A stretch of DNA of 64,000 nucleotides from a virus. The translations under genes and the position numbers were made by a program. Location of the stretch: positions 1 through 64,000 of IMG/VR virus record IMGVR_UViG_3300034068_000566, one strand, 5' to 3'. This document shows, one piece after another, positions 18,151 to 43,331 of the stretch; position 1 is the stretch's first letter; each line of letters begins with the position of its first letter. The notes beneath the pieces are model-generated. The model did no database searches and had not been told where the DNA came from. It was given only the letters and a program-made list of their open reading frames with translations.

Positions 18151-18350
18151 TCCTCTATATGATCTAGATTCCACATTCTAATATCGGTAGCTGCAATACG
18201 TATTTTTTCAGATTCAATTTCATTTGTCGCTTCAACAACTAGCGTCATACTCAAAGGATAATATCCATCTGCAAATAAATCTTTTTTTGCGTGGAACTTA
18301 TAAGTCTCAGCACAAATCTTTTCATCTACTTTATAATAATATTTTGGCAT
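18147..18350 (-). CDS. Hypothetical protein, 67 aa
   Basis: MPKYYYKVDEKICAETYKFH.. mixed alpha/beta; LSMTLVVEATNEIESEKIRI reads as strand-helix. Last gene of the DUF6171-oxygenase-methyltransferase cassette; start coupled to the methyltransferase stop. Unknown function. Confidence 0.55.
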   Translation of the reverse strand: MPKYYYKVDEKICAETYKFHAKKDLFADGYYPLSMTLVVEATNEIESEKIRIAATDIRMWNLDHIED

Positions 18351-19012
18351 TATGGTGCTTCGTATCTTCCATAATATTTGTAGATCTCATATGGAATAAC
18401 AGTAGAGTCAACCCACCAGTCTTCATGACCTATCTTTGCAACTAGGGAATAGCCTAGGTTATTTAGAATTTCTCGCTGAGCATCACGCAAGGAAGCATTC
18501 TTGTAGTTGATAATATATTCGTGTTCAAAAGAAATAACGGTAAAGCGATATCTGGATAATGGCAGGGCAATTAAACCATTCAATGGTGTTCCAATAGGAG
18601 CAATAGGTCTTCCACCTTTATCCATAGGAGATTCAATATCAATTTGAAGGTAATCAATTTGTTTTGGAAAGTTGTTCTCTTCAAAGTATTTTAAATAATC
18701 AAAGGTTGTGGCATCTTGCATTAAACAAGGGTTTTTACGAACAGAGTTATATTCATCGACATTTCTTTGATCTAAATCAAAACCAACACCTGTCCAGTCA
18801 TATTCATTTTCCATTTTATAGGTTGTGTTTCCACTAATAGGACCTGCTGATCCCATTTCTACATAATATCCATTTTTCTTATATTCTAAGATATCTAAAG
18901 CAAACATATCTGAAGCTCGCATAACATCTCGTTTATCTCGCATATGTTTTTCAAAATCTGGTCGAGTCATATTATTTATTTCATTGATACGTTCAGTTAT
19001 ACGTTGATCCAT
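18350..19012 (-). CDS. FkbM-like SAM-dependent methyltransferase
   Basis: 220 aa. SAM-binding motif YYVEMGSAGPISG at about 50-61, TGVGFDLDQ, then IDYLQIDIESP and a FEHEY strand. This copy keeps the canonical QIDIE motif, which its paralogue at 1401 has changed to SIDTD. Start overlaps the 2OG-oxygenase gene by 20 nt. The tight coupling suggests that the oxygenase and methyltransferase act on one target, possibly hydroxylation followed by O-methylation. Confidence 0.75.
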   Translation of the reverse strand: MDQRITERINEINNMTRPDFEKHMRDKRDVMRASDMFALDILEYKKNGYYVEMGSAGPISGNTTYKMENEYDWTGVGFDLDQRNVDEYNSVRKNPCLMQDATTFDYLKYFEENNFPKQIDYLQIDIESPMDKGGRPIAPIGTPLNGLIALPLSRYRFTVISFEHEYIINYKNASLRDAQREILNNLGYSLVAKIGHEDWWVDSTVIPYEIYKYYGRYEAP

Positions 19013-19583
19013 CGTGTTCCTCTATTTCGCTAAAGAGTTCTTTATTGAAAAGAACTGGACTTTCTTTTGATCCTCTTACAAAGCATGTTGAAAAATATCG
19101 GGGGAGATCATCAAGAACCGCTAATGACTTATGCAGGATATTCCCACCATGTAATACCAAAGACCTAGCTTTAGGCTTATGTACAATACCTAACTCTGAG
19201 TACTCTAATTCTCCTCCAGCATACTCGTCATTATAATATAAACATACACCATACCTGATGTGATATGGCTCATCCTTTAACCAATAGTCTCTATGTTCCT
19301 GAATAGCTGCTCCTTCTCTATACCGTTGAAGTGCAACTGAGCCTACATACAATAATGATTCAAATAGGTTTTGTATTTGATTATCTATATCTTTAAATAC
19401 CTGTGGTTTGTCACCGTTATATTGCTTACCGTAGAAAAATCCATTTTTATAATCATCATCAGGTGATAGCCACCATTGCTCTTCATCTAAGCCTGATGCA
19501 AAATCTAAAACCTCTTTTTGTTGATCTACTGTAATAAAGTCCTCAATCTCATATAGATCTGGGGATAACCTGTTAATTTTCAT
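18993..19583 (-). CDS. 2OG-Fe(II) oxygenase, prolyl 4-hydroxylase-like
   Basis: 196 aa. Iron ligands H97-x-D99 (QEHRDYW) and H151 (GGNILHKS), 2OG-binding R162 (PRYFSTCF); the strand NDEYAGGELEYSELG with KPKARSLVL is the standard P4H core. These enzymes hydroxylate proline or related side chains while decarboxylating 2-oxoglutarate. Its start overlaps the stop of the DUF6171 gene (TAATATG). Substrate unknown; see the oxygenase cluster at 36-42.7 kb. Confidence 0.85.
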   Translation of the reverse strand: MKINRLSPDLYEIEDFITVDQQKEVLDFASGLDEEQWWLSPDDDYKNGFFYGKQYNGDKPQVFKDIDNQIQNLFESLLYVGSVALQRYREGAAIQEHRDYWLKDEPYHIRYGVCLYYNDEYAGGELEYSELGIVHKPKARSLVLHGGNILHKSLAVLDDLPRYFSTCFVRGSKESPVLFNKELFSEIEEHDGSTYN

Positions 19584-22373: not shown

Positions 22374-23129
22374 ATGGCTACTTCTAAATCTATGGATTTT
22401 CCTGCTTCAAAATCCTCTAGCTATGCCGATAAAGTAAAGCAAGAAAATGGCCAAGTAGATAATAGTATTTATATTCCAGTTCCTGGACCACAAGGCGAAA
22501 AAGGATATCCAGGAAAAGATGGTTTGCCTGGCCCAGAGGGACCCGCAGGACCAAGAGGTGAACGTGGACTTCAGGGCAAAGACGGAAAAGACGGCAAACC
22601 AGGTCCTCAAGGCCCTAAAGGGGAACCTGGAGAGTTAGATCCAACAACTAATCCATATGCACAACACACTGGTTGGGCTATTTATGATAATTTAAATAAT
22701 AAGGGCCTAAGAATTGGAGCAAATAGAGGAACAGATGGTTGGGTAGATCTTTCAGTTGATGGTTTGGGTTCAAATACAAATGAAGTGTACCTTCCAGGAA
22801 ATAAAATTCCTTTATACAACATAGAATCTCAAAAGCTTAATTTTAAGCATATTAAGCTGGGATCTAGAGTAGACATAACCTATAATCTAAGCATAGAAAC
22901 TCTTAATAATAATACAGAAATATGGCTAAAATCACTCTTCCCAGATGATGACAACAGTATTATAAGTTTTGTAGCTTCTCTAAAATATCAACATACATAC
23001 AATCTATCTACTACTCATAGCTTTGTTATAGATACCGAAAAAGTTAAAAGGCTTGGTATTTCACCACAAATAATGTCAGATTTAGAAGGCACGGCTATCT
23101 TAAACTCTATCTACATTTCAATATCCTAG
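22374..23129 (+). CDS. Collagen-like fibre protein with Gly-X-Pro triplets, 251 aa
   Basis: Residues about 37-84 are an uninterrupted collagen-type Gly-X-Y stretch with Y-position prolines (GYP, GLP, GKP, GEP), the positions hydroxylated by collagen prolyl 4-hydroxylases. The N-terminus is polar and the C-terminal 160 residues are a globular head. GATAAT exactly 6 nt before the ATG: leaderless. A plausible substrate for the phage's oxygenases. Confidence 0.75.
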
Positions 23130-25300: not shown

Positions 25301-26722
25301 ATGCTGGGGTTTATAGGCCGTTGGGCAGCATCCAAAGGAATGGTAGCAGTACCAAACCTAGTTGGTCTATTAAACACAGCAGCACAAACAGCAATTACAA
25401 ATAGTGGTTTAACTTTTTCTTCAAGCTCCACAACAAACACTGGAGACTCTAATTTAGCAAATAAAGTTCAATCACAAACTCCAACTTCAGGAACCCTTGC
25501 TGACTATGAGTCTTCTGTTAGTTTTGTTTCTTATTCTTATGTAGCACCACCATTCTTTCCATTCTTCCCACCATTCTTCCCACCTTACTTTGCTCCAACG
25601 CCAAGTGCAACAATTTCAAACCTTACATATACAGCTAATGGCCCACACGATGGAACCTTATCTTGGACTGGATCAAATATAGTTAATTATCTATATACAT
25701 CCACTAATGGCGCTACAAATTATCCATCAGAATACAACTACGGAGCATATACTGCATCATGGCCTGGCAATTTAGTTAACATGGCTAATGGCCAGTCTTA
25801 TACCGTCACAATTACGGTTAATCCTGGAGGAGCAAGTCAAACAATAACATTCACCCATAGTTATGCAAACGCCTTCCCTTCATTTACTACACCTCTTGCT
25901 TTATCTTCAAAAACATCTACATCTTTAACATATTCATGGGATGGTTTTGATGCACTTTCTTGGCAGTTAAAAGATGGAGCAACAATTTTAGCATCAGGAA
26001 ATGGTTTTGGTCCACAGACAGCGACGAGAACTGGTCTAACTCCAAATACTTCTTATACTTCATATGTTAGAATATGGAGTGGATCTGGACAAACAGGAAA
26101 TTCTGCAGACTCACCAGGTGTTAGCGCAACAACACATTATAGCATCTGGTCAGGTTGTTATAACGGAGTCACACAAGGTGCAGGATACGGTTCAGGACCT
26201 ACAGCAGTAGGGTGGAGTATTGTTAACGGAACAACAGAAAGTTCCTCACTTACAGAATCTGAAATCCGTGCATTAATTGGTGGAGGATGCCCAGCAGCAC
26301 CGTTCTTCCCACCATACTTTGCTCCAGCACCGTTCTTCCCACCATACTTTGCTCCAGCACCAACATATACAATCTGGTCAGGTTGCTACAATGGTGTAAC
26401 GCAAGGTGCAGGATACGGCTCAGGATCTACAGCAGTAGGGTGGAGTATTGTTAACGGAACAACAGAAAGTTCCTCACTTACAGAATCTGAAATCCGTGCA
26501 TTAATTGGTGGAGGATGCCCAGCAGCACCGTTCTTCCCACCATACTTTGCACCAGCACCGTTCTTCCCACCATACTTTGCTCCAGCACCGTTCTTCCCAC
26601 CATACTTTGCACCTTCCGAACCATCAAATCTCTGTACGGGATATGATGTTTTCGGCCAGTCTAGTTCAAGCTGCGTTGTTGTAGGTGAATGTAATCCAAC
26701 CGCATCAGGTGATCCATGTTGA
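25301..26722 (+). CDS. FFPP-repeat fibre protein with PASTA-like and Fn3-like domains, 473 aa
   Basis: N-terminal PASTA-like domain (VAVPNLVGLLNTAAQTAI.., about 15-75), then a PFFPFFPPFFPPYFAP segment, two Fn3-like beta domains (about 100-280), and two nearly identical 76-residue units (WSGCYNGVTQGAGYGSG..SEIRALIGGGCPA) each followed by repeated PFFPPYFAP blocks. Cys in each unit may be disulfide-linked. PASTA domains bind peptidoglycan, consistent with cell-surface contact. It is paired with the 141-aa gene after it, as the gene at 34262 is with its neighbour. Confidence 0.65.
   Translation: MLGFIGRWAASKGMVAVPNLVGLLNTAAQTAITNSGLTFSSSSTTNTGDSNLANKVQSQTPTSGTLADYESSVSFVSYSYVAPPFFPFFPPFFPPYFAPTPSATISNLTYTANGPHDGTLSWTGSNIVNYLYTSTNGATNYPSEYNYGAYTASWPGNLVNMANGQSYTVTITVNPGGASQTITFTHSYANAFPSFTTPLALSSKTSTSLTYSWDGFDALSWQLKDGATILASGNGFGPQTATRTGLTPNTSYTSYVRIWSGSGQTGNSADSPGVSATTHYSIWSGCYNGVTQGAGYGSGPTAVGWSIVNGTTESSSLTESEIRALIGGGCPAAPFFPPYFAPAPFFPPYFAPAPTYTIWSGCYNGVTQGAGYGSGSTAVGWSIVNGTTESSSLTESEIRALIGGGCPAAPFFPPYFAPAPFFPPYFAPAPFFPPYFAPSEPSNLCTGYDVFGQSSSSCVVVGECNPTASGDPC
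26144..26600 (+). repeat. 228-bp in-frame duplication in FFPP protein
   Basis: ATCTGGTCAGG begins the unit at 26144 and again at 26372, 228 bp later; about 150 bp of the two copies are almost identical. Downstream, TTCTTCCCACCATACTTTGC repeats several times. Confidence 0.85.
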
Positions 26723-26750: not shown

Positions 26751-27176
26751 ATGATTAATGATTTAGACATTACCTATAGCTCTGAAAGAGATAGGTTGAA
26801 AGGTGCTCCATTAACTTTTGTAATTGAGGGGGAATGCCTTTATGACTTTGTAGTTACAGAAGAGGGTGTTGATTTATTTACAAAAAATAAAGGTATGAAT
26901 GATATTTCTAATAATTATCCAGATTATGATGGCATAACTCTTGAGATTATTAAAGAAAACGATGAAATTGAAATATATCAAACTAATGAGTACTTTGGTT
27001 CAATTTTATTAAGCAACCCCACGATAGTAAATGTTATTGATTATCCTTATGGACACTACGTTCTTTCCCCAGAAGCATCTTTTGATGGCGAAAAGTTTAT
27101 TATTAATAATAGACTACTTTCTGAATTAACTGAGTGGCATATTACTAATCCAAACCATCCCAACAATATAAAATAA
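26751..27176 (+). CDS. FFPP-module partner protein, 141 aa
   Basis: About 60% similar by eye to the 148-aa protein at 35297 (GAPLxFVIxGECLYxF, LFTKNKG, KENDEIExYQTNEYFGS, YPYGHxVxSPxASFDGEKFII). Both directly follow an FFPP-tract protein. GAGG ribosome-binding site. May be a chaperone, chain partner or modifying factor of the preceding fibre; no known motif. Confidence 0.6.
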   Translation: MINDLDITYSSERDRLKGAPLTFVIEGECLYDFVVTEEGVDLFTKNKGMNDISNNYPDYDGITLEIIKENDEIEIYQTNEYFGSILLSNPTIVNVIDYPYGHYVLSPEASFDGEKFIINNRLLSELTEWHITNPNHPNNIK

Positions 27177-27222: not shown

Positions 27223-27771
27223 TTATTCAGGAAACTTTTGCATCCAAGACTTTGTCTTAGGAGTAATTCCCTTCCAGGCAGACCAATTTTTACCACCGTC
27301 TGACATATGAAATGCTATTTTTGCATTTACGACGGGATTTAGAAGGTCTGAGTTAGCATCAAGATTAAACTTATCTCGACGATCAGGACCTAATTGCCCA
27401 ATCATATTAATCTGAAACATACCATAAGAACTGTCTCCAGTCTCAGTGTTTCCATTAAATCTGATTGGTTGACCATTAGACTCTTTTTTGGCTACTGCCC
27501 AAGCCTCCTTTAGATCGTTGCCCCTAAAGCCAACGAGATATAAAAGTTCCTTGAGTTCACCATCGGTTAGAGAACCCTTGTTTTCAAACTTTTGTAATTT
27601 TTTCTCCTTAGAAACACTTAAAGCCTCTTGCGAGGCTGAATCTGCGGATACTACAATTTCCGTACTTAAGTTATTGCGTTCACTAGCATTAGCAACATTT
27701 AAACCTTGTGCTGCCATTACTATAATCGTGAGTATTCCGATGAGTTTTTGTTTATCTTTTGCTATATTCAT
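27223..27771 (-). CDS. Secreted lysozyme-like (transglycosylase-fold) endolysin, 182 aa
   Basis: N-terminal signal-peptide-like region (KLIGILTIIVMAAQGLNVANA, about 9-29), linker, then a lysozyme-like domain: AWAVAKKESNG with the probable catalytic Glu at 97, SSYGMFQIN, NPVVNAKIAFHMSDGGKNWSAW. Likely cleaves peptidoglycan at lysis or is a virion-associated muralytic enzyme; the signal peptide suggests Sec export or a SAR-type lysin. AAGGAGGAAACAG is a strong ribosome-binding site. It is the only minus-strand gene in the fibre region, with its own promoter. Confidence 0.78.
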   Translation of the reverse strand: MNIAKDKQKLIGILTIIVMAAQGLNVANASERNNLSTEIVVSADSASQEALSVSKEKKLQKFENKGSLTDGELKELLYLVGFRGNDLKEAWAVAKKESNGQPIRFNGNTETGDSSYGMFQINMIGQLGPDRRDKFNLDANSDLLNPVVNAKIAFHMSDGGKNWSAWKGITPKTKSWMQKFPE

Positions 27772-34261: not shown

Positions 34262-35248
34262 ATGGCATCAGGTAAAAAAATAGGCAAGAAGTCTCAAGCG
34301 TCAAATGACTTCTTAGAGCCAATGGCTCCTACTGGTGTAACAGCAACAAATGTTGGAACTGGAAGAGCCTTTAATAATGGAGCAGCTACAGTTACATTTT
34401 CTTTGCCTGCACTATCTCCTGCTGCTTCATCATTTACTGTAACCTCATCACCTGGCGGATATACTGGCACTGGAGCATCTTCTCCAATTACAGTAGCTGG
34501 ACTTCAATCTGCCACAGCCTATACATTTACCGCAACAGCTACTAATGCTGCAGGAACATCTGTAGCCTCTTCTGCTTCAGCTTCTATTACCGCAACAACA
34601 GTTCCAGCAACTATGTCTGCTCCAACCCCAACTGCTGGAGTTAATCAAAACTCAATTGCTTTTTCAGCACCAGCAACTGGTGGATCTACAATTACAGGAT
34701 TTACCGTAACAGGCTCTGATGGTACATCTGGAACTGGAGCATCTTCTCCAATTGTTATTGCAGACACTGGTGGAACTTCTCAGACATATACAGTTAGGGC
34801 AACTAATGCTAACGGTACTGGTTCAGCTTCATCTGCATCTGGATCTATTACCACTACCCCGCCATTTTTCCCACCATTCTTCCCACCTTTCTTCCCGTTC
34901 TTCCCACCATTCTTCCCTCCGTTCTTCCCTCCGTTCTTCCCACCATTCTTCCCATTCTTCCCGTTCTTCCCACCATTCTTCCCTCCGTTCTTCCCACCTT
35001 TCTTCCCACCATTCTTCCCATTCTTCCCACCATTCTTCCCACCTTTCTTCCCTCCATTCTTCCCACCGTTCTTCCCATTCTTCCCATTCTTCCCATTCTT
35101 CCCACCATTCTTCCCACCTTTCTTCCCACCTTCATTCCCATTCTTCCCTCCATTCTTCACAGCACCTTCTTGCCACACTTGCAATGGCTCTGATGCCTAC
35201 TGGGGCTACTATGGCTGTGGTTACCCAGGAGAAGTTGTTTGCAACTAA
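34262..35248 (+). CDS. Fn3-like protein with 95-residue Phe-Pro tract, 328 aa
   Basis: Two Fn3-like domains (about 20-110 and 115-198; SPGGYTGTGASSPITVAGLQ, TVRATNANGTGSAS), then from about residue 200 to 299 an almost pure FFPP/FFP tract, ending in a Cys-rich domain (SCHTCNGSDAYWGYYGCGYP). The tract could form a rigid polyproline-type rod with aromatic ridges. Related to the shorter tracts in the protein at 25301. AGGAGATATAA upstream. Confidence 0.62.
   Translation: MASGKKIGKKSQASNDFLEPMAPTGVTATNVGTGRAFNNGAATVTFSLPALSPAASSFTVTSSPGGYTGTGASSPITVAGLQSATAYTFTATATNAAGTSVASSASASITATTVPATMSAPTPTAGVNQNSIAFSAPATGGSTITGFTVTGSDGTSGTGASSPIVIADTGGTSQTYTVRATNANGTGSASSASGSITTTPPFFPPFFPPFFPFFPPFFPPFFPPFFPPFFPFFPFFPPFFPPFFPPFFPPFFPFFPPFFPPFFPPFFPPFFPFFPFFPFFPPFFPPFFPPSFPFFPPFFTAPSCHTCNGSDAYWGYYGCGYPGEVVCN
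34858..35158 (+). repeat. 300-bp pyrimidine tract encoding FFPP repeats
   Basis: Units of CCATTCTTCC / CCTTTCTTCC repeat about 25 times. The plus strand has almost no G except as CCG or CCGTTC. Because the period is three-fold, reverse frames stay open as Lys-Asn-Gly-Gly repeats, which are artefacts. Confidence 0.9.
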
Positions 35249-35296: not shown

Positions 35297-35743
35297 ATGA
35301 TTAAAGATATTGATATTCAACATAGTTTTAGTAGAGATAAGTTAGCAGGAGCACCATTAGTATTTGTTATTGATGGGGAGTGTCTTTATAATTTTAATGC
35401 AACACTTCCTGGCATTGACCTATTTACAAAAAATAAAGGCATTACAGATATATCTGCTGACTACCCAGAGCACGATGGGGCTACACTTCAAATTGTTAAA
35501 GAAAATGATGAAATTGAAGTCTATCAAACTAACGAATACTTTGGTTCAGTTTTACTAAGCAATCCAACAGTTCTTGATTTAAATGATTATCCTTATGGAC
35601 ATCATGTTATGTCTCCAGATGCCTCATTTGATGGAGAAAAGTTTATTATTAAAAATAAAACGGTTGCTGAACATGTACGATTAACGGAATGGCATATTCA
35701 CAATCCTAAAAATCCAAATTATGTACCCCATCCAAACGTTTAA
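35297..35743 (+). CDS. FFPP-module partner protein, 148 aa
   Basis: Paralogue of the 141-aa protein at 26751, again directly after an FFPP protein. Conserved core: INVDGECLYNF-like, DLFTKNKGITDIS, KENDEIEVYQTNEYFGS, YPYGHHVMSPDASFDGEKF. The C-terminus is 7 residues longer. AAAGGAG ribosome-binding site. Function unknown; co-conservation suggests it acts on or with the FFPP protein. Confidence 0.62.
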   Translation: MIKDIDIQHSFSRDKLAGAPLVFVIDGECLYNFNATLPGIDLFTKNKGITDISADYPEHDGATLQIVKENDEIEVYQTNEYFGSVLLSNPTVLDLNDYPYGHHVMSPDASFDGEKFIIKNKTVAEHVRLTEWHIHNPKNPNYVPHPNV

Positions 35744-35779: not shown

Positions 35780-36013
35780 TTGTCAGAAAAAAGCGCATGG
35801 GAAAAATATAAAGAAAAAAATGGGGTAACTCCACTAGATATGCTTAATCCACATACAAAGCGTATACCACATGAATCTGCTCAAAAAAGATTTGATATTT
35901 GTAAGGAGTGTCCAGAATTAATAAAACTTACTTCTCAGTGTAAAAAATGTGGTTGTTTCATGAAAGTTAAGACTACTCTTGAGATTGCTAAATGCCCACT
36001 AAATAAGTGGTAA
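35780..36013 (+). CDS. DUF6171-like zinc ribbon, 77 aa
   Basis: CKECPELIKLTSQCKKCGCF..K..LEIAKCPLNKW, homologous to the ribbon at 19585. Start is TTG at 35780, since AAAGGAG lies 6-7 nt before it and no ATG is in position. It opens the oxygenase cluster. A role as adaptor or metallochaperone for the oxygenases is speculation based on repeated adjacency. Confidence 0.7.
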   Translation: MSEKSAWEKYKEKNGVTPLDMLNPHTKRIPHESAQKRFDICKECPELIKLTSQCKKCGCFMKVKTTLEIAKCPLNKW

Positions 36014-36086
36014 CACTCGCTATATATTGCTTTAAATAGCACTTTTATGCTATAATAAAACTATACCATTAAAAGATAGGAATCAC

Positions 36087-36806
36087 ATGCAAGCATATGA
36101 TGAAAACGATAATCACTGGTTTACTAAAGATAGATCAGAAACAGCCTCAACAAGAATTTCCCGATTGATGCCTCAAAGTAATATCCCGATTAGCAATCCA
36201 GGATTAGGTTTAAATATTTATCATAATGTTTTTTCAAAAGATGATTCAGATAGATATATCAATACTCTTGAGCACAATCTTTCAGGGGATAATAAGTATA
36301 AGTGGTCTGAAGCACAGGTAACAAACTCTACTGTTCCAATCAAAAAAGCAAGAGATGCTGTAGACTTTAAATATAAGCAAGAAAATCTTGGTCCAAGAGA
36401 TGAACATAATGCTGATCTGATTGATTTGCATGAAGAGATATATCAAAAACTAAAATTGTGCATAGATGATTATGCACACTACTGGGGAATAAATGTTACA
36501 TATTATGAAGCATTTAACTTTGTAAAGTATGAAGGTGAAGGAACTCACTTTAATATACATGCTGATCATGGTCCAGCTTATAATTGTACTGTTTCTGCAG
36601 TAATTTATATTAATGATGATTACGAAGGTGGAGAAATTAAGTTTCCAAGATTAGATAATTTTGTTCATACCCCAAAGGTTGGAGATATAGCAATCTTTCC
36701 TTCAAACTATATATATGAGCATGCTTCTTTGCCAATGAAAACAGGAACAAAATATTGTGTTGTCATTATGACAGACATTAATCTTTTAGGTCACACAGGA
36801 AATTAA
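36087..36806 (+). CDS. 2OG-Fe(II) oxygenase A, 239 aa
   Basis: Iron ligands H158-x-D160 (NIHADHG) and H212 (YEHASLP); NDDYEGGEIKFPRLDN and TPKVGDIAIFPS are the core strands; a Lys (TGTKYCVV) stands where Arg usually binds 2OG. First of seven oxygenases. Closest relative by eye is oxygenase B next to it (VDFKYK / VDFKFK, YxEAFNFVKYE / YWEAFNYIKYE). A promoter-like TATAAT and a short leader precede it. Confidence 0.85.
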   Translation: MQAYDENDNHWFTKDRSETASTRISRLMPQSNIPISNPGLGLNIYHNVFSKDDSDRYINTLEHNLSGDNKYKWSEAQVTNSTVPIKKARDAVDFKYKQENLGPRDEHNADLIDLHEEIYQKLKLCIDDYAHYWGINVTYYEAFNFVKYEGEGTHFNIHADHGPAYNCTVSAVIYINDDYEGGEIKFPRLDNFVHTPKVGDIAIFPSNYIYEHASLPMKTGTKYCVVIMTDINLLGHTGN

Positions 36807-36819
36807 CATAGGAGAAAAT

Positions 36820-37491
36820 ATGAATACAGAAAATACAACATCAGCACCTTGGAGCAGCTATGAAGAGATTGCTCCAGGAATTTTTGTTTACCACGACGTT
36901 CTGCCAACAGAATTAAACATTATTGATAGGCTGGAAGAGGTTTTGAATAATGACAGACCAAACTATAATTGGCAACCAGCCTATGTTGGTTATCAACAAA
37001 GAATGCCAGAGTATAGAGATTGCGTTGATTTTAAATTTAAGAAAACAGACATTGAAAGAGATGTATCTCCAGACTCCTTAAAACTTCAGGGCATTTGGCA
37101 AGACTGTTATGATAGACAAAAGTTAGCAGTAGAAGATTACTGCAGACGCTTTAATATTAATAACCTAAGATACTGGGAAGCTTTTAATTACATTAAGTAT
37201 GAGCCTGGTCAACACTTTATGGAACATCATGATCATGGATTTTCATATAACTGTACATTGTCTCTAGTTGCTTATATTAATGATAATTTTGAAGGCGGAG
37301 AATTATTCTTTAGACTTCAAGGAATTACGTATATTCCAAAAGCTGGGGATGTTGTATTGTTCCCATCTAACTTTATGTATCCACATCAAGCTAAGGTTGT
37401 TCATTCTGGGACAAAGTATTCTTTAGTAACAATGCTTGACTATAGCGATAAGTATCACACTCCAGAGATGTATCAAGAGACTGGATCATAA
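36820..37491 (+). CDS. 2OG-Fe(II) oxygenase B, 223 aa
   Basis: H136-x-D138 (MEHHDHG), H189 (YPHQAKV), core NDNFEGGELFFRLQG and IPKAGDVVLFPS, 2OG-binding position TKYSLV. Paralogue of A, 13 nt downstream with AGGAGAAAAT. Stop overlaps the start of the DUF6065-like gene. Substrate unknown. Confidence 0.85.
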   Translation: MNTENTTSAPWSSYEEIAPGIFVYHDVLPTELNIIDRLEEVLNNDRPNYNWQPAYVGYQQRMPEYRDCVDFKFKKTDIERDVSPDSLKLQGIWQDCYDRQKLAVEDYCRRFNINNLRYWEAFNYIKYEPGQHFMEHHDHGFSYNCTLSLVAYINDNFEGGELFFRLQGITYIPKAGDVVLFPSNFMYPHQAKVVHSGTKYSLVTMLDYSDKYHTPEMYQETGS

Positions 37492-38204
37492 TGTCAATTA
37501 TCACTGCTTATAGAAAAACACCAATGGCATTGAATATAGAGCCAATGTCTATAAAAAGAGATTGGATGGATGAAACTCCACAGGGTCATGCCTATAGATG
37601 TCATCCAGTCACATCTGCCAATGTTATTGGCTGGAGTATATCTTCACCAGTAGACATAAAGTTCATCTGGAATGGTGTTAATGATACAAGCGGAGATAAT
37701 GTTACTATACTTGAAGGAAAAGAGTATGTTTATACTGGAAGAGGACAGTCAACAGTTAGTTTTAATACTGGATTTATTTTAAGAACAGATGAAAAAACTA
37801 GCGTATTGACAATAACTCCACAAAACTATTTTAATGAAGATGTTGAGGTTATGTCCTCTCTCATATCTACTTCTTTTTTAAATACAGATTTTCCCTTAGC
37901 AATTAAATGCAAGGTAGCAAATAAAGAAATTACTATTAAGGCAGGTTCACCCATAGCAACCATAATTCCTATCTCTTTAACTTCTTTAAAAGATGAGTCT
38001 GTAGAGATAGTCAACTTTGTACACACACAAGAATATTCTGATGCTTTAAACTCATATGGTAAAGCAGCTCAAGAAGTAAACCAGAGTGGAGAGTGGACTG
38101 ACTGGTATAGAAATGCTGTAAATGAAAAAGGCGAGTCTATTGGATCACACGAAGTTAAAAATTTAAAATTAAACGTTATTGATAATACAGGAGGCAAACA
38201 GTGA
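37491..38204 (+). CDS. DUF6065-like protein 1, 237 aa
   Basis: ITAYRKTPMALNIEPM.. WMDETPQGHAYRCHPVTSAN.. SPVDIKFIWNG..; middle part SVLTITPQNYFNEDVEVMSS. It resembles the DUF6065 family, which is found next to oxygenases in phages and bacteria; family assignment is from memory. Related to the next protein over its length (SPVDI / TPCDI, VLTITPQN / VLYVAPFN, AGSPIATIIP / AGTPYAQLLP). Probably a beta-sandwich. Overlaps both neighbours by 1-4 nt. Confidence 0.55.
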   Translation: MSIITAYRKTPMALNIEPMSIKRDWMDETPQGHAYRCHPVTSANVIGWSISSPVDIKFIWNGVNDTSGDNVTILEGKEYVYTGRGQSTVSFNTGFILRTDEKTSVLTITPQNYFNEDVEVMSSLISTSFLNTDFPLAIKCKVANKEITIKAGSPIATIIPISLTSLKDESVEIVNFVHTQEYSDALNSYGKAAQEVNQSGEWTDWYRNAVNEKGESIGSHEVKNLKLNVIDNTGGKQ

Positions 38205-38926
38205 AGATCATTGAGTTTATAACTAATAGGCCTTGGCTAAATAAAGATAGTAAATCAAAGCCAATACCAATTTCAAGATCAATGCCACAGTGGTATAAAG
38301 AAGCTGATAGGTTTGCTAAAAAACCAGATGGAGAATATTGGATAGGACCAGACAAAGGAAAGATCCCTACATGGAAAGCCTGTCCTGCAATTCTTGATAT
38401 TTTAACAACTGGGTATAGCCTTGTAACCCCCTGTGATATAGAATTTTTCCTTGATGGCGCAGGGCAAATTGATGTTAAAACTGAAGATCCAATGTATAAA
38501 GATTTTGCTACAAGAAGAACTCCCATGCCACAATTTCGTCATCCAGAAGGATATTATAATTATCACTTTGCATGGATGCCAGATTGGGCAGTAAAGGTTC
38601 CAGATGGCTATAGCGTTTTATATGTTGCTCCATTTAATAGATACGATCTTCCAATTATGACAGTTTCTGGAATTATTGATAATGACAAAGTTAACTTGCC
38701 TGGATCTTTTCCATTTTTTGTACAAAAAGGTTGGACTGGAGTTCTTCCAGCAGGAACTCCTTATGCTCAGTTGCTTCCATTTTTGAGGGAAGATTGGAAA
38801 TCCGAAATAACTGTTCCAACTGCTTCTGAAATGATGAATCATAATATAGAAAATAGTAAAAAATATCGTGTCCCAGATGGCGGAGTTTATCAAAAAGAAG
38901 TCTGGACTAAGAGATTCTACGAATAG
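38201..38926 (+). CDS. DUF6065-like protein 2, 241 aa
   Basis: Paralogue of protein 1: SMPQWYKEADRF, ILTTGYSLVTPCDIEFFLDG, FAWMPDWAVKVPDGYSVLYV, GVLPAGTPYAQLLPF. Same alpha/beta plan; no catalytic motif that I recognise. GTG start overlapping protein 1's stop. Its place between oxygenases implies it belongs to the same pathway. Confidence 0.55.
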   Translation: MKIIEFITNRPWLNKDSKSKPIPISRSMPQWYKEADRFAKKPDGEYWIGPDKGKIPTWKACPAILDILTTGYSLVTPCDIEFFLDGAGQIDVKTEDPMYKDFATRRTPMPQFRHPEGYYNYHFAWMPDWAVKVPDGYSVLYVAPFNRYDLPIMTVSGIIDNDKVNLPGSFPFFVQKGWTGVLPAGTPYAQLLPFLREDWKSEITVPTASEMMNHNIENSKKYRVPDGGVYQKEVWTKRFYE

Positions 38927-38944
38927 GAAATGGTATAATAAAAC

Positions 38945-39625
38945 ATGAAACAAAATAACGAGTCGTACACAGTAGTTAAAAGAACACCATCTATAACTCC
39001 ATCTGGTTGGTTTGGAGATAGCAAAGACATGATTGTCGAGCTAGAAAATTTTATGACCCCAGAAGAGATTGAGTTTTTAGAAAAAGCTGCTAAGTCTTTG
39101 ACAATTTGGGATGTAACTGAAAGCCATATGAATGAAAATGGGACTGTTACATATGACTCAAACTATTGGAAAGACAGAGTTGCTACTAGCCCAACATTAA
39201 ATAAAAATGATCCAACCATCGCACCAGTAATTGCTGGATTATTTCAAAGATTAAAACCAATTGTTGAAGAATTTTATAAGGTAGAAGTCGTTCCAACTGG
39301 AACAACTATTGTTAAATGGCTTCCTGGACAATTTCAAAAACCTCATGCGGATAAAGAGTTACATGAAGGTCCTGATGCTGGAACTCCTAATGACTTTCCA
39401 AATTATGACCTATCTAGTCTATTTTATTTAAATGATGACTATGAGGGTGGAGAATTATACTTTCCTATACAAGGTGTACAGTTTAAGCCTAAAAAAGGAG
39501 CTGCATACTTCTTCCCAGGAGATAAAAACTATATTCATGGAGTTACTGAAATCAAAAGTGGCCTAAGATTTACATGTCCATTTTTTTGGGAAATTACTAA
39601 GCATACAGGAGATAGGCAACCATAA
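38945..39625 (+). CDS. 2OG-Fe(II) oxygenase C, 226 aa
   Basis: H134-x-D136 (KPHADKE), H198 (YIHGVTE), R nearby (SGLRFTCPFFW), core NDDYEGGELYFPIQG and KPKKGAAYFFPG. TATAAT lies 5 nt before the ATG, so transcription can restart here without a leader. Different subgroup from A/B. Confidence 0.87.
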   Translation: MKQNNESYTVVKRTPSITPSGWFGDSKDMIVELENFMTPEEIEFLEKAAKSLTIWDVTESHMNENGTVTYDSNYWKDRVATSPTLNKNDPTIAPVIAGLFQRLKPIVEEFYKVEVVPTGTTIVKWLPGQFQKPHADKELHEGPDAGTPNDFPNYDLSSLFYLNDDYEGGELYFPIQGVQFKPKKGAAYFFPGDKNYIHGVTEIKSGLRFTCPFFWEITKHTGDRQP

Positions 39626-40512
39626 TGACATATCCTTGGCCAAACAATAATAAACTTGAGTCAATAGAAATATATCCAAATATTGTTGTGTACAAAAATC
39701 TTTTTAAAGATATTGAAAAATCTTATAAAATTTTAACAGATTCTTTATCAGAAACAGAAGATGGTTTGTTTAATCCTTGGACCACTTGGTCTGTTTTTGG
39801 GGAATACTTAAATCCAATAACTCCTCAATTTTCAATGAATGATAGATATGGAAATATGAAAGATGTAGAAACATCAACAGAAACGCAAGAAAATCATAAA
39901 AACTTTGTAATTGAAATGATGGACAATTTTTATTTAGCTACAGAAGACTATATCAAGAGCCATAATTTAGACGTAGATTTAGATGCAATGTCTATAAATG
40001 ATGATGGGAATCCTATTCCAACATGGAGATGGGCTGGTGGAACTATAGGTAAATATCATGTAAGTAATGAAGACAGTAGAGTTGGAATGAACTATCATTC
40101 AGACTATATAAGAGAGCAAGGTCATACCCCAGGTTATAAGTTTGTAATAACATCTACAATATATTTTAATGATAACTATGAGGGTGGAGAAATTGATTTT
40201 GCAATGGGAGACAAGCTTGTAAAGTATAAACCAGAAGCAGGAGATGTTTTAGTTTTTCCATCAGGGCACCCAGACTATCTGACAGAAGAAGGAAAACCAT
40301 ATTTACATGGAGTTATGCCATCATATAAAAATAATAAGTTTTTGTCAAGAATGTATTGGCAAAAATATCAAAAAGGAACTGATGATTGGTATGAAAAAGA
40401 AAAAGAGTTTGGAAAAGATGTTTGGGCGGAAATGCAAAAAGATTTAGACGAACAGTTTAGACTAAAGCACCCGCAAAGAGCTGTAATAGAAAATGGAGTA
40501 AGAATACAATGA
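39625..40512 (+). CDS. 2OG-Fe(II) oxygenase D, 295 aa
   Basis: H158-x-D160 (NYHSDYI), H228 (YLHGVMP), R (NKFLSRMYW), core NDNYEGGEIDFAMGD. Longest of the set, with a C-terminal helical extension (WYEKEKEFGKDVWAEMQKDL). Overlaps neighbours by 1 and 4 nt. Confidence 0.87.
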   Translation: MTYPWPNNNKLESIEIYPNIVVYKNLFKDIEKSYKILTDSLSETEDGLFNPWTTWSVFGEYLNPITPQFSMNDRYGNMKDVETSTETQENHKNFVIEMMDNFYLATEDYIKSHNLDVDLDAMSINDDGNPIPTWRWAGGTIGKYHVSNEDSRVGMNYHSDYIREQGHTPGYKFVITSTIYFNDNYEGGEIDFAMGDKLVKYKPEAGDVLVFPSGHPDYLTEEGKPYLHGVMPSYKNNKFLSRMYWQKYQKGTDDWYEKEKEFGKDVWAEMQKDLDEQFRLKHPQRAVIENGVRIQ

Positions 40513-41267
40513 ACCTAGAGAATAAAGTTAGGCTAACAAAAGACATAGTTGTTTATAAAAATTTTATAAGCAAAGAGGATTGTCAAAAGATGATTCAAGC
40601 ATTAGATGCTCAGGCAGATAATGGTGCACTCTCTTGGATGCCTATTTCATTTTATGAATCATACTCTTCTGTCCTTCCACAAGACAATGATCAAGAGTTG
40701 CTTGATGCTGAACTATCTCCAACTATTTTTTCAGACATTGAAAAAACAATGCCAGAGGCAATTGCTTCAGTTCATGACTTAGATCCAAAGACAATTTCTA
40801 AGATTGGATACCATACACAAAAGTGGGAGCCAGGAGCATACGCAAGAATTCACTCTGATAATACAGATGCTCAAGGAAATTCAGGAGCATTTACAAGAAG
40901 TCGTTATGCAGGGTTCCTATATCTAAACGATGACTTTGAAGGGGGACTGCTTAAGTTTCCAAGTCATAACATAGAGATTAAACCAGAAGTTGGAATGCTT
41001 GCTGTTTTTGACGGGGGATTTAGCAACATGCACGAAGTCTCCCTAATAGAAAGTGGAGTAAGATATACCATTGGATCTTTTTGGGATGACAGAGAAGAAG
41101 ATGCTTACCCACAAGAATTAAGAGATGCCTGGGCTGCAGAAATGAAAGAGACTAGAGCAAAACAAGAAATTGAAAGAGCCGAATGGCAAGATCTTTTAAA
41201 AGAAGGATGGAAGTTGGATGCTGCTGGAAATAAATATAAGGTAGAAGATTTAGGGAATAATGTCTAA
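40509..41267 (+). CDS. 2OG-Fe(II) oxygenase E, 252 aa
   Basis: H115-x-D117 (RIHSDNT), H175 (NMHEVSL), R (SGVRYTIGSFW), core NDDFEGGLLKFPSHN. C-terminal coiled coil (AAEMKETRAKQEIERAEW). ATG overlaps the stop of D (ATGA). Strongly predicted as active from its triad. Confidence 0.87.
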   Translation: MNLENKVRLTKDIVVYKNFISKEDCQKMIQALDAQADNGALSWMPISFYESYSSVLPQDNDQELLDAELSPTIFSDIEKTMPEAIASVHDLDPKTISKIGYHTQKWEPGAYARIHSDNTDAQGNSGAFTRSRYAGFLYLNDDFEGGLLKFPSHNIEIKPEVGMLAVFDGGFSNMHEVSLIESGVRYTIGSFWDDREEDAYPQELRDAWAAEMKETRAKQEIERAEWQDLLKEGWKLDAAGNKYKVEDLGNNV

Positions 41268-41919
41268 TTTTCTAACAAGCATACTAAAAGAAAATAATTT
41301 TCAGGTTGAAGAAGTTACTGATGATATTGTTTTAGTTAAAGATTTTTTTTCTAAAGATGATCTAGATCAAGTTTTTAATATTATAGACTCAACTCCAAAT
41401 GAAGAGTGGTTTATAGAATATCATGCTAACTTAAAAAACTTTTGTATGCAAAAATTTGGCAGAGATGATGTTGATAATTTAGTTGCAGAAGGTAAATTTG
41501 AAATAACTCAAAACTGGCAAGATAAAAATTTAAATATAGGACAACACCCATTTCAAAAAACCTTGTTCGATAGACTAAATAATTTAGTTCAAAATGTTGA
41601 CAACACAATAGAGTTAAGTGGTTTTGCAACTATTCAAAGGATGCAAGAGGGTGTCGAGTTAAAAGCTCACACAGATCAAGATACAGATCCATCGATTAGG
41701 TACGCTGCCATTCTGTATTTAAATAATGATTATGTTGACGGAGAGTTGTTTTTTCCAAACAATGGCTTAGAGTTTAAGCCTGATCCTGGGTCAATGCTTA
41801 TTTTTCCAGGCACAGCAGAATATAATCATGGAGTAAAGCATGTAGGTCCAGGACCAATTAGATATGTTTTGGTTGGATTTATTAAGGTTAAAAATTTTTA
41901 TGATAACAATAAATACTAA
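41260..41919 (+). CDS. 2OG-Fe(II) oxygenase F, 219 aa
   Basis: H137-x-D139 (KAHTDQD), H190 (YNHGVKH), R (GPIRYVLVGF), core NNDYVDGELFFPNNG, in which the usual EGGE is VDGE. Overlaps E by 8 nt. No extra domains. Confidence 0.86.
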   Translation: MSNFLTSILKENNFQVEEVTDDIVLVKDFFSKDDLDQVFNIIDSTPNEEWFIEYHANLKNFCMQKFGRDDVDNLVAEGKFEITQNWQDKNLNIGQHPFQKTLFDRLNNLVQNVDNTIELSGFATIQRMQEGVELKAHTDQDTDPSIRYAAILYLNNDYVDGELFFPNNGLEFKPDPGSMLIFPGTAEYNHGVKHVGPGPIRYVLVGFIKVKNFYDNNKY

Positions 41920-41930
41920 AGGAGAAATAA

Positions 41931-42662
41931 ATGAATAAAGAACTACTAGACCCAAAGGTATACTATTATACTGACGCAATTGAAAATTTTGACAAATTTA
42001 AACAAGTTTGGAAAGAGTTAGACACTCTTGAGCAATATGATGAGTTAGGGGTAAATGTTTGGAACCCTTGGACATCTTCTAACGATAAAACTTTTATCTA
42101 CGGAGAAACAAAAACTTTTGATGCTAATGCAATAAGCAATCTTAGTGGAGATGTAGCAGAAAAAAGTAAATATATTTATGATGCCGTTATGACTACAATG
42201 TATAATGTTTGTAAAGACTATGCATCCTCTATGGGAGACTTTGATGAGCCAAGACTTTTTCCAACATTTAACATAAAAAAGTACAATACTGGAATGGCTA
42301 TGGGGGCGCACTTTGATCAACTCGATGGCGATAAGACATTGAGATATTCTTTGGTAATGTATTTAAACGATGACTGTGAAGGCGGAGAAATTTCTTTTCA
42401 GTTAAAGGACTATGATGGTGGATGGACTAGCTCAGAAGGTTGGGTAAGTGGCGCACCAGCAGTAGAGTTAGACTATGATCTTGCAGTTGCAAACAAAGCT
42501 ATTAGTTTTGGTGTAAAACCTAAAGAAAATAGCGTTGTAATATTTCCAGCATATGCTCCATATTTTCACACGGCACACACAGTTAAGTCTGGCGTAAAGT
42601 ATATGATTCCTGGACATTGGATCCATAACAATATGGAGCTTAATCAAAGCCAGAGCATGTAA
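41931..42662 (+). CDS. 2OG-Fe(II) oxygenase G, 243 aa
   Basis: H127-x-D129 (GAHFDQL), H213/H216 (YFHTAHTV), Lys at the 2OG position (SGVKYMIPGHW), core NDDCEGGEISFQLKD with an inserted loop (about 160-190) before the last strands. AAAGGAGAAATAA upstream. Stop joins the TTG start of the dehydrogenase. Confidence 0.86.
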   Translation: MNKELLDPKVYYYTDAIENFDKFKQVWKELDTLEQYDELGVNVWNPWTSSNDKTFIYGETKTFDANAISNLSGDVAEKSKYIYDAVMTTMYNVCKDYASSMGDFDEPRLFPTFNIKKYNTGMAMGAHFDQLDGDKTLRYSLVMYLNDDCEGGEISFQLKDYDGGWTSSEGWVSGAPAVELDYDLAVANKAISFGVKPKENSVVIFPAYAPYFHTAHTVKSGVKYMIPGHWIHNNMELNQSQSM

Positions 42663-43331
42663 TTGAAAACAGCAATTGTAACTGGAGCAAGTAAGGGTGT
42701 TGGATTAGCAACAGTTAAGCGCTTGTCTGAAAATGGGTATAAAGTAATTGCTGTTTCAAGAAACCTTTCAAAAGTCTCTGAACTAATATCTGATAATGTT
42801 GAGGTATATAATCTAGACATTACAGACTCTAAAGCAATAGAAGTGTTCTTTGAAAAATACAAAGACATTACTTTAGACCTTTTAGTTAATAATGCTGGAG
42901 GAGGGTCAGGCCCAACTCATATTATTAATGAGACTCCAGAAAACTTTAGAAAAGCTTATGATATAAATGTAACTGGCCCTATGTACCTATCTCAACTATT
43001 TGCTCCATGTATGGAAAAGTCAGAGTCTCCAACAATTATCTTTATTACTTCTTTTGGAGGAAAGGTACCATATCGTGGTGGAGGAAACTATACAAATGCG
43101 AAGAGAGGTGAACGTGGTCTTATTGATACAATGAGACTTGAGTTTCCTCAATTTGGGATTAAGATTACAGAAATCTGTCCAGCAACTATTGATACCCAAG
43201 AACAAAAACGGGATCAAGCATTAACCGCAGAAGATTTAGCAGAAGCAATTTACTGGGTAGGATCATTACCAAGTCATGTTAATATAAATGAAATTGAAAT
43301 CTGTCATATTCACAGCAGCAAGTATGGTTAA
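42663..43331 (+). CDS. Short-chain dehydrogenase/reductase, 222 aa
   Basis: NAD(P)-binding TGASKGVG at 8-15, NNAGG at about 78, catalytic Ser (ITSFGG) and YxxxK (NYTNAK). Acts as an oxidoreductase on alcohols or sugars. TTG start overlapping the upstream stop (TAATTG), so it is part of the oxygenase operon, suggesting oxidation of a hydroxylated product or synthesis of a sugar for it. Substrate unknown. Confidence 0.88.
   Translation: MKTAIVTGASKGVGLATVKRLSENGYKVIAVSRNLSKVSELISDNVEVYNLDITDSKAIEVFFEKYKDITLDLLVNNAGGGSGPTHIINETPENFRKAYDINVTGPMYLSQLFAPCMEKSESPTIIFITSFGGKVPYRGGGNYTNAKRGERGLIDTMRLEFPQFGIKITEICPATIDTQEQKRDQALTAEDLAEAIYWVGSLPSHVNINEIEICHIHSSKYG

Follow-up and report, generated by a model that had tools for sequence, protein, structure and literature searches.

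A probable mobile tail-fibre modification cassette of 2OG-Fe(II) oxygenases beside a Phe-Phe-Pro-Pro fibre tract in a freshwater phage

Gene content of the locus

The window analysed here, the whole stretch of 64,000 nucleotides taken from IMG/VR virus record IMGVR_UViG_3300034068_000566, comes from a freshwater phage whose hosts are probably actinobacteria. Its plus strand carries a tight operon (36087-42662) of seven intact 2OG-Fe(II) oxygenase genes and two DUF6065-type genes, closed by a short-chain dehydrogenase (SDR) gene, in the order two oxygenases, two DUF6065-type genes, five oxygenases and SDR, and with neighbouring genes overlapping by 1-8 bases or separated by at most 18. The preliminary description had called the oxygenases consecutive; they do share one operon, but not strictly in a row, since the two DUF6065-type genes separate the second from the third. 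Against PF13640 (2OG-FeII_Oxy_3, curated Pfam cut-off 27 bits) all seven score 33-48 bits: ox1 (36087-36806, 2e-10), ox2 (36820-37491, 4e-12), ox3 (38945-39625, 8e-9), ox4 (39625-40512, 4e-8), ox5 (40509-41267, 1e-7), ox6 (41260-41919, 2.5e-10) and ox7 (41931-42662, 1e-9). The first DUF6065 protein (37491-38204) matches PF19541 at 2e-32, above the curated cut-off, while the second (38201-38926) has no Pfam match and is assigned to this type by phrog_7084 only (2e-33). The SDR gene (42663-43331; PF00106, 1e-40) is followed directly by a ribonucleotide reductase (RNR) gene.

An eighth oxygenase, ox8 (18993-19583, minus strand), likewise exceeds the PF13640 cut-off and is paired with a methyltransferase-like gene of FkbM type (18350-19012, minus strand), whose 20.4 bits against PF05050 fall below the curated cut-off of 22.7. 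A gene at 385 previously described as JmjC-like is below the Pfam cut-off, and that at 1401 lacks any Pfam match. Alignment of ox1-ox8 bears out the intact HxD...H motifs first noted in the sequence, the H-x-D, the distal histidine and a subsequent Lys/Arg (the basic 2OG-binding residue) being kept in all eight. The paralogues are diverged, with 40% identity in the closest pair and 21-36% in most, and their orthologues hold position across phages; recent tandem duplication of a single oxygenase was therefore rejected. The member commonest across cassette classes is ox2, with orthologues 60-68% identical in class A and about 40-48% in the others.

The predicted structure of ox5 (AF2, pLDDT 87.5) is closest, among solved structures, to protein prolyl hydroxylases, which make up nearly all of its top 50 Foldseek matches in the PDB and include P3H1, bacterial and algal P4H, PBCV-1 vCPH and PHD2, making peptidyl-proline hydroxylation its putative activity. 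Sequence profiles of ox2, ox3 and ox5 also match P4H/P3H (against P3H1, 2.5e-5 for ox3 and 3e-7 for ox5). Membership of the TET/JBP base oxygenases was considered and set aside, ox3 being the sole cassette protein to match Tet_JBP (PF12851), at 22.2 bits against a curated cut-off of 34.9.

Just upstream of the cassette lies the gene of an Fn3-domain tail-fibre protein (34262-35248, plus strand; PF00041), in which the Fn3 domain is followed by a 96-residue FFP/FFPP tract (34865-35152) of 25 FFP units and the C-terminus is Cys-rich. A single small gene intervenes (35297-35743, plus strand; 148 aa, no Pfam match); its orthologues occupy the same position in five related loci (L011, L012, L013, L107, L108), and its paralogue at 26751 comes after a second FFPP-containing, fibre-like gene (25301-26722, plus strand) encoding 8 FFP units and an N-terminal PASTA-like domain just below threshold (PF03793, 21.4 bits, cut-off 23.2). 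The statement that the fibre genes lie immediately upstream thus holds for 34262, but not for the collagen gene at 22374 (17 Gly-X-Y triplets), which is about 13 kb from the cassette. Across 171 tracts the residue preceding proline is Phe in 2670 of 2678 blocks. Tract grammar varies with cassette class, single-P units occurring in 58/63 against 6/37, a difference that may stem from common descent alone.

Association of the tract with the oxygenases

A search of viral contigs with an FFPP DNA pattern yielded 109 loci with an FFP open reading frame. Oxygenases were present within the fetched stretch in 81, and in 71 the nearest is a downstream gene of the same strand; at least one was found on the whole contig in 96; the 13 contigs lacking a PF13640 match are mostly short. 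Loci retrieved by a collagen pattern served as a control, and only 2/119 had oxygenases (Fisher 1e-34 against FFPP loci). Restricted to 8 kb downstream, the counts were 68/83 for FFPP-pattern and 2/70 for collagen-pattern loci. In a matched control of N-terminally homologous fibres carrying (FGA)n in place of FFPP, none of 50 had an oxygenase within that distance (Fisher 2e-23). Since these oxygenase-free FGA fibres also contain valine-proline-rich stretches, richness in proline is not by itself a predictor of the cassette. The association runs both ways: searches anchored on ox2 recovered an FFPP tract in 60/61 loci (one of them within a frameshifted gene), and those anchored on ox4 an FFP open reading frame in every locus extending upstream of ox1. 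The co-occurrence anticipated in the preliminary description is thus borne out for FFPP fibres and fails for Gly-X-Pro fibres, and on the control scan the collagen fibre was rejected as an oxygenase target.

Gene order and adjacency are maintained in cassettes of differing composition, where genes for sulfotransferases, SDRs and FkbM-type proteins are found repeatedly; in three loci (L034, L077, L108) relatives of ox8 and of its FkbM-type partner lie inside the cassette itself. The case named beforehand as contrary, an oxygenase cluster without a proline-rich fibre, does occur at least once, in two sister contigs (L502/L503), both incomplete, that carry relatives of ox2, ox3, ox5, ox7 and SDR without FFPP. 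In bacterial genome contigs FFPP matches were mostly due to chance, with one real cassette (L229) on a contig that binning had placed in a Verrucomicrobiales MAG. Among isolate phages a DNA-level search gave no match to the cassette, and tblastn against the isolate collection reached three distant marine single-cell viruses with ox3 and distant cyanophage genes with ox2; no cassette-bearing isolate was therefore seen there.

A further comparison took in phages whose portals are 76-84% identical and whose sequence reaches 12 kb or more upstream (27 rows, the window included). FFPP and cassette coincide in 27/27 rows with six changes on the portal tree, and independent pairs are concordant in 5/5, a number with which a sign test cannot reach 0.05. 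In two near-isogenic pairs (L552/L553 and L554/L555; portals 98-99% and RNR 97-99% identical) the FFPP end of the fibre and the entire oxygenase cassette are exchanged together. L013 and L016 share ox1 and ox3 at 88-91% and the fibre N-terminus at 87% identity, yet their portals are 49% and their major capsid proteins (MCP) 38% identical. That tract and oxygenases are gained and lost jointly suggests chemical modification of the fibre by the phage itself, and we think it likely that a mobile cassette for tail-fibre modification is present in the window.

Accessory genes and competing explanations

The AF2 model of the DUF6065-like 38201 product (pLDDT 88.6) suggests a dUTPase-like beta-clip fold, nearly all of its listed top 50 Foldseek matches being dUTPases or dCTP deaminases, and these matches are weak (best E 2e-3, TM about 0.6 by target). 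Such a fold would also fit a nucleotide role. However, a DUF6065-type gene follows the homologous, oxygenase-free FGA fibres in 45/50 loci, and for this reason the probable function of the DUF6065 proteins is in binding or assembling the repetitive aromatic fibre rather than in oxidation. A role for the cassette in making or using modified nucleotides is hard to credit as a whole: the fold resemblance, the position of DUF6065 beside thymidylate synthase in halovirus HSTV-2, the RNR gene directly after the cassette, the action of some 2OG oxygenases on bases and the weak Tet_JBP match of ox3 would all accord with it, but RNR is retained in near-isogenic phages devoid of the oxygenases and is not adjacent in two loci (L014, L017), no C5-methyltransferase was found in the phage record, DUF6065-type genes follow FGA fibres that lack oxygenases, and the dependence on the tract would be left unexplained. 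We consider this reading very improbable.

Somewhat greater weight, though still that of an unlikely explanation, attaches to the proposal that the oxygenases have another target required in the same host interaction, for instance a protein or the surface glycans of the host, and accompany the FFPP fibre since host range depends on both. Host-range cassettes naturally sit in the fibre region, FkbM-type, SDR and sulfotransferase genes are found in glycan pathways too, and distant 2OG relatives of ox2 adjoin tail genes in cyanophages lacking FFPP. Yet the link is to the tract and not to the fibre family, as the homologous FGA-tract fibres demonstrate, and the predicted ox5 fold is of the protein prolyl hydroxylase type. 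It is also highly doubtful that FFPP fibres and oxygenases merely share one hypervariable cargo region with no functional link, for although the region plainly moves and varies and two cassette contigs (L502/L503) are free of FFPP, order and adjacency persist across cassettes of different make-up, neither the collagen nor the FGA control displays the association, and several joint changes are independent.

Proposed mechanism and known systems

Fibre modification is thus the favoured reading: in its own tail fibre the phage likely hydroxylates the Phe-Pro tract and may decorate it further. That the oxygenases have the phage's own fibres as their target had been put forward for both fibre types; tract association, joint gain and loss and the ox5 fold speak for the FFPP tract, and the collagen fibre has dropped out. 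Gene 34262 would supply an Fn3 protein with a terminal tract of Phe-Phe-Pro and Phe-Phe-Pro-Pro units, upon which several prolyl-hydroxylase-type oxygenases from the downstream operon would act, most likely at proline and possibly at phenylalanine, perhaps with a division of labour among the seven enzymes by position or order. The SDR might then oxidise the new hydroxyls, or the FkbM-type methyltransferase (in related cassettes, sulfotransferases) might cap them; further tailoring beyond hydroxylation is plausible given the recurrence of these genes. The benefit may lie in solubility, adhesion or host range. We see an even chance for a more specific version, a tract-specific post-translational modification system in which at least five enzymes of prolyl-hydroxylase type, joined by SDR and O-methyl- or sulfotransferases, would turn a C-terminal (Phe-Phe-Pro-Pro)n tract into a polyhydroxylated and further decorated polymer. 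Phages of freshwater actinobacteria would, on this version, switch their fibre chemistry through joint exchange of tract and enzymes, between FFPP accompanied by oxygenases and FGA without them.

Several known systems offer partial parallels. Like the present enzymes, PBCV-1 vCPH (PDB 5c5t), one of the ox5 fold matches, is a virus-encoded 2OG prolyl-hydroxylase fold with the virus's own proteins as proposed target, but it is a single enzyme of an algal virus, whereas the phage cassette comprises several enzymes and is linked to a Phe-Pro tract in a tail fibre. A passage of PMC7019647 citing Eriksson 1999 describes viral peptide substrates for it; another relays a personal communication (reference 162) of no hydroxyproline in purified PBCV-1 virions, which counts against fibre hydroxylation. 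P3H1 and the prolyl 4-hydroxylases are the best sequence-profile and fold matches of ox3 and ox5, yet identity over the fold alignments is about 13-19%, here FF-P-P is the proposed substrate, and the oxygenases are not associated with the gene of the collagen-like fibre. The 2OG-Fe(II) oxygenases of T4-like cyanomyoviruses (phrog_61) belong to the same superfamily and some stand beside tail genes, but they share 25-36% identity with ox2 among the matches listed; two cyanophage genomes that were checked have neither the FFPP tract nor such a cassette. A Baltic Sea survey counts prolyl 4-hydroxylase among abundant viral accessory genes whose viral use 'remains cryptic' (PMC9301287). In the papers searched we found no description of such a fibre-modification system, no paper on DUF6065 or FFPPFFPP, and none that fully matched phage virion hydroxylation.

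Genome comparison with matched controls here provides a specific, testable candidate substrate. If the proposal is true, such genes should be classed as host-metabolism genes only with caution, the cassettes would supply enzymes for Phe-Pro polymers, and the phage would encode a system that hydroxylates its fibre and so offers a new way of varying receptor-binding chemistry.

The oxygenase cassette and its surroundings

The record holding the window comprises 95,289 bases, of which the window represents 1–64000. Its 2OG-Fe(II) oxygenase genes ox1–ox7 (36087–42662, plus strand) belong to a compact ten-gene operon in the order ox1, ox2, DUF6065-1, DUF6065-2, ox3, ox4, ox5, ox6, ox7 and SDR, flanked on one side by a run of tail-fibre genes and on the other by a ribonucleotide reductase (RNR), portal and major capsid block. 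The coordinates and motifs of the preliminary description proved correct. In a profile search each of the seven oxygenases scored above the PF13640 cut-off, and upon alignment each retained the iron triad and a basic 2OG-binding residue. The run is not strictly consecutive, because two DUF6065-type genes are interposed. Directly upstream is the gene of an Fn3 fibre protein (34262) ending in a 96-residue Phe/Pro tract of the Phe-Phe-Pro-Pro type (FFPP). It is followed by a small gene (35297–35743), whose product had no match in a Pfam profile search and shares its small protein family with 26751–27176, so that one family member follows each of the two FFPP genes in the window. The product of the second FFPP gene (25301–26722) is PASTA-like at its N-terminus and contains repeats of the unit WSGCYNGVTQGAGYGSG, and the fibre block also includes a lone reverse-strand gene (27223–27771, minus) with a lytic-transglycosylase-like sequence and no PHROG match. 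An eighth oxygenase, ox8 (18993, minus), is partnered by an FkbM-type gene, and a cupin/JmjC-like gene lies near an unassigned gene (1401; both within 385–2075) that is apparently a relative of the FkbM-type gene at 18350. The earlier JmjC and FkbM assignments both fall under curated Pfam cut-offs.

Profiles of ox2, ox3 and ox5 match prolyl 4- and 3-hydroxylases of solved structure. Of the seven enzymes ox5 alone was modelled with AlphaFold (pLDDT 87.5), and its structural matches are almost exclusively protein prolyl hydroxylases, including P3H1, a bacterial P4H, an algal P4H with a Ser-Pro peptide, PBCV-1 vCPH and PHD2. The DUF6065 model (38201–38926, pLDDT 88.6) bears a remote likeness to dUTPases and dCTP deaminases (best E 2e-3), and a DUF6065 relative in halovirus HSTV-2 (NC_020159.1 gene 40) adjoins a thymidylate synthase. 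Cassettes related to this one further contain TauD-type oxygenases, a glutathione-peroxidase-like protein, a Sulfotransfer_2 protein and ox8/FkbM-type genes. FFPP genes with ox2/ox3-like, DUF6065 and TauD-type genes also occur on L229 (DUCD01000215.1), a contig of low coverage that was assigned to Verrucomicrobiales by binning and probably comes from a phage.

Association of oxygenases with the Phe-Pro tract

Gene order is largely kept across 23 ox4-anchored loci on other viral contigs, and an FFP-repeat ORF lies upstream of ox1 in every contig extending that far. In one of these, L016, ox1 and ox3 are 88–91% identical to those of the window, against 49% for the portal and 38% for the capsid, and L013, carrying the same cassette, has a fibre N-terminus 87% identical to the window's; judging from these sequences, fibre and cassette therefore appear to move jointly between phages with different heads. 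An ox2 profile gave 61 loci with at least 3 kb upstream, 58 of them with an FFP ORF, among the matches listed; L485 has a tyrosine-rich version of the tract, and in L531 it is present but visibly frameshifted. A cassette devoid of a proline-rich fibre, named in the preliminary description as the refuting case, was encountered among the matches listed only in L503 and its sister L502, incomplete contigs in which a search of the remaining sequence also found no FFPP, and which so far stand as a real exception.

The reverse search looked for a DNA pattern encoding FFPPFFPPFFP and yielded, among the matches listed, 109 loci that include an FFP ORF (like the collagen, portal and ox2 sets, this FFPP set is a sample of mostly fragmentary records). 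Oxygenases were found within the fetched stretch in 81 of these, the nearest being downstream on the same strand in 71 and often less than 100 bases away, and on the whole contig in 96. By comparison, a Gly-X-Y pattern of similar length had oxygenases at 2 of 119 loci among the matches listed (Fisher 1e-34), so that the anticipated co-occurrence with FFPP or Gly-X-Pro fibres is borne out for the former but not the latter. A rare collagen-like fibre gene (L460:3–4512) does have a 2OG oxygenase directly after it, then a second oxygenase-domain protein. Since the collagen loci probably sample other habitats and phage groups, a closer control was required.

This was provided by a scan for fibres with an (FGA)n tract, 52 of 53 of which share an N-terminal homology group with 66 FFPP fibres. 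Of 50 FGA loci whose downstream sequence extends for at least 1.5 kb, none had an oxygenase within 8 kb of the fibre on that side, while 45 had DUF6065; the same test gave oxygenases at 68/83 and DUF6065 at 58/83 FFPP loci, and 2/70 and 0/70, respectively, at collagen loci (both among the matches listed). When the homologous N-termini were grouped at 90% identity, 47 of 57 FFPP clusters (matches listed) and 2 of 33 FGA clusters had an oxygenase somewhere in the stretch. Some FGA fibres contain valine-proline-rich stretches and still lack oxygenases. Oxygenases therefore track the Phe-Phe-Pro tract, and DUF6065 tracks aromatic-tract fibres generally.

Relatives were also chosen by portal protein, blind to FFPP and cassette. 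Among 34 listed contigs longer than 20 kb, all eight bearing FFPP have at least four PF13640 matches adjoining it, and none of the 26 listed without FFPP has such a cluster; in the FFPP-free group, G069 and G073 look like cassettes truncated by the contig edge, and G041 groups three short, distantly related genes (L466). Once eight records lacking sufficient upstream sequence are removed, presence of FFPP matches presence of the cassette in all remaining rows, window included, and the portal tree implies six changes, with five of five independent pairs concordant (matches listed), a number at which a sign test cannot reach 0.05. Two near-identical pairs, L552/L553 (portal 99%, RNR 97%) and L554/L555 (portal 98%, RNR 99%), each share an Fn3 fibre gene at the same position. 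In the FFPP member the fibre terminates in a Phe-Pro tract and Cys-rich tail, and five or six oxygenase genes come next. Its counterpart in the second phage (L553:5763–7094; L555:9135–10649) terminates in an (FGA)n tract and longer C-terminal domain, oxygenases are absent, and one DUF6065-like gene is left ahead of RNR. Homologous Fn3 fibres with the FGA tract and longer C-terminal domain (L556–L620) usually have a DUF6065 gene next. As for the host, WhiB, taken as an actinophage marker (PMC10202952), occurs in 19 of the 24 large records related to the window, different cassette classes among them, and was not found in the record that holds the window; among isolates, Streptomyces phages have the nearest portals.

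Tract composition and proposed hydroxylation

In 171 distinct tracts the residue directly preceding proline is phenylalanine in 2670 of 2678 two-residue blocks, while the one before it varies (Phe, Tyr, Ser or His), an asymmetry of the kind expected if the tract were constrained by an enzyme that reads sequence or by a tight structure. Window-class tracts mix FFP and FFPP (58/63), and tracts in the remaining classes consist almost wholly of [F/Y]FPP, with no single-proline unit in 31/37. The window tract (34865–35152) uses TTC for 50 of 51 phenylalanines, against 30/189 (TTT 159/189) in eight other genes, and its codons are therefore atypical of the genome; this bias may guard against poly-T slippage or make translation faster. 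Some FFPP fibres (L111:8063–9304, L137:3566–6481) end in intein/Hint-like domains that directly follow the tract; these matches, weak in Pfam, suggest self-cleavage or ligation at the fibre end.

A search of open-licence full text found no description of a comparable system. The closest precedent, PBCV-1, is itself a caution, as its virions contain no hydroxyproline according to a personal communication cited in PMC7019647. Sequence, association and one predicted fold make hydroxylation of the fibre's own Phe-Pro tract, as originally proposed, the best reading. Cassette oxygenases would act on the tract of fibre 34262; with 51 phenylalanines and 44 prolines, this tract would be very hydrophobic when unmodified. 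Hydroxylation would render it more polar, and the new hydroxyls may provide sites where methyl, sulfate or keto groups are introduced in an optional later tailoring step.
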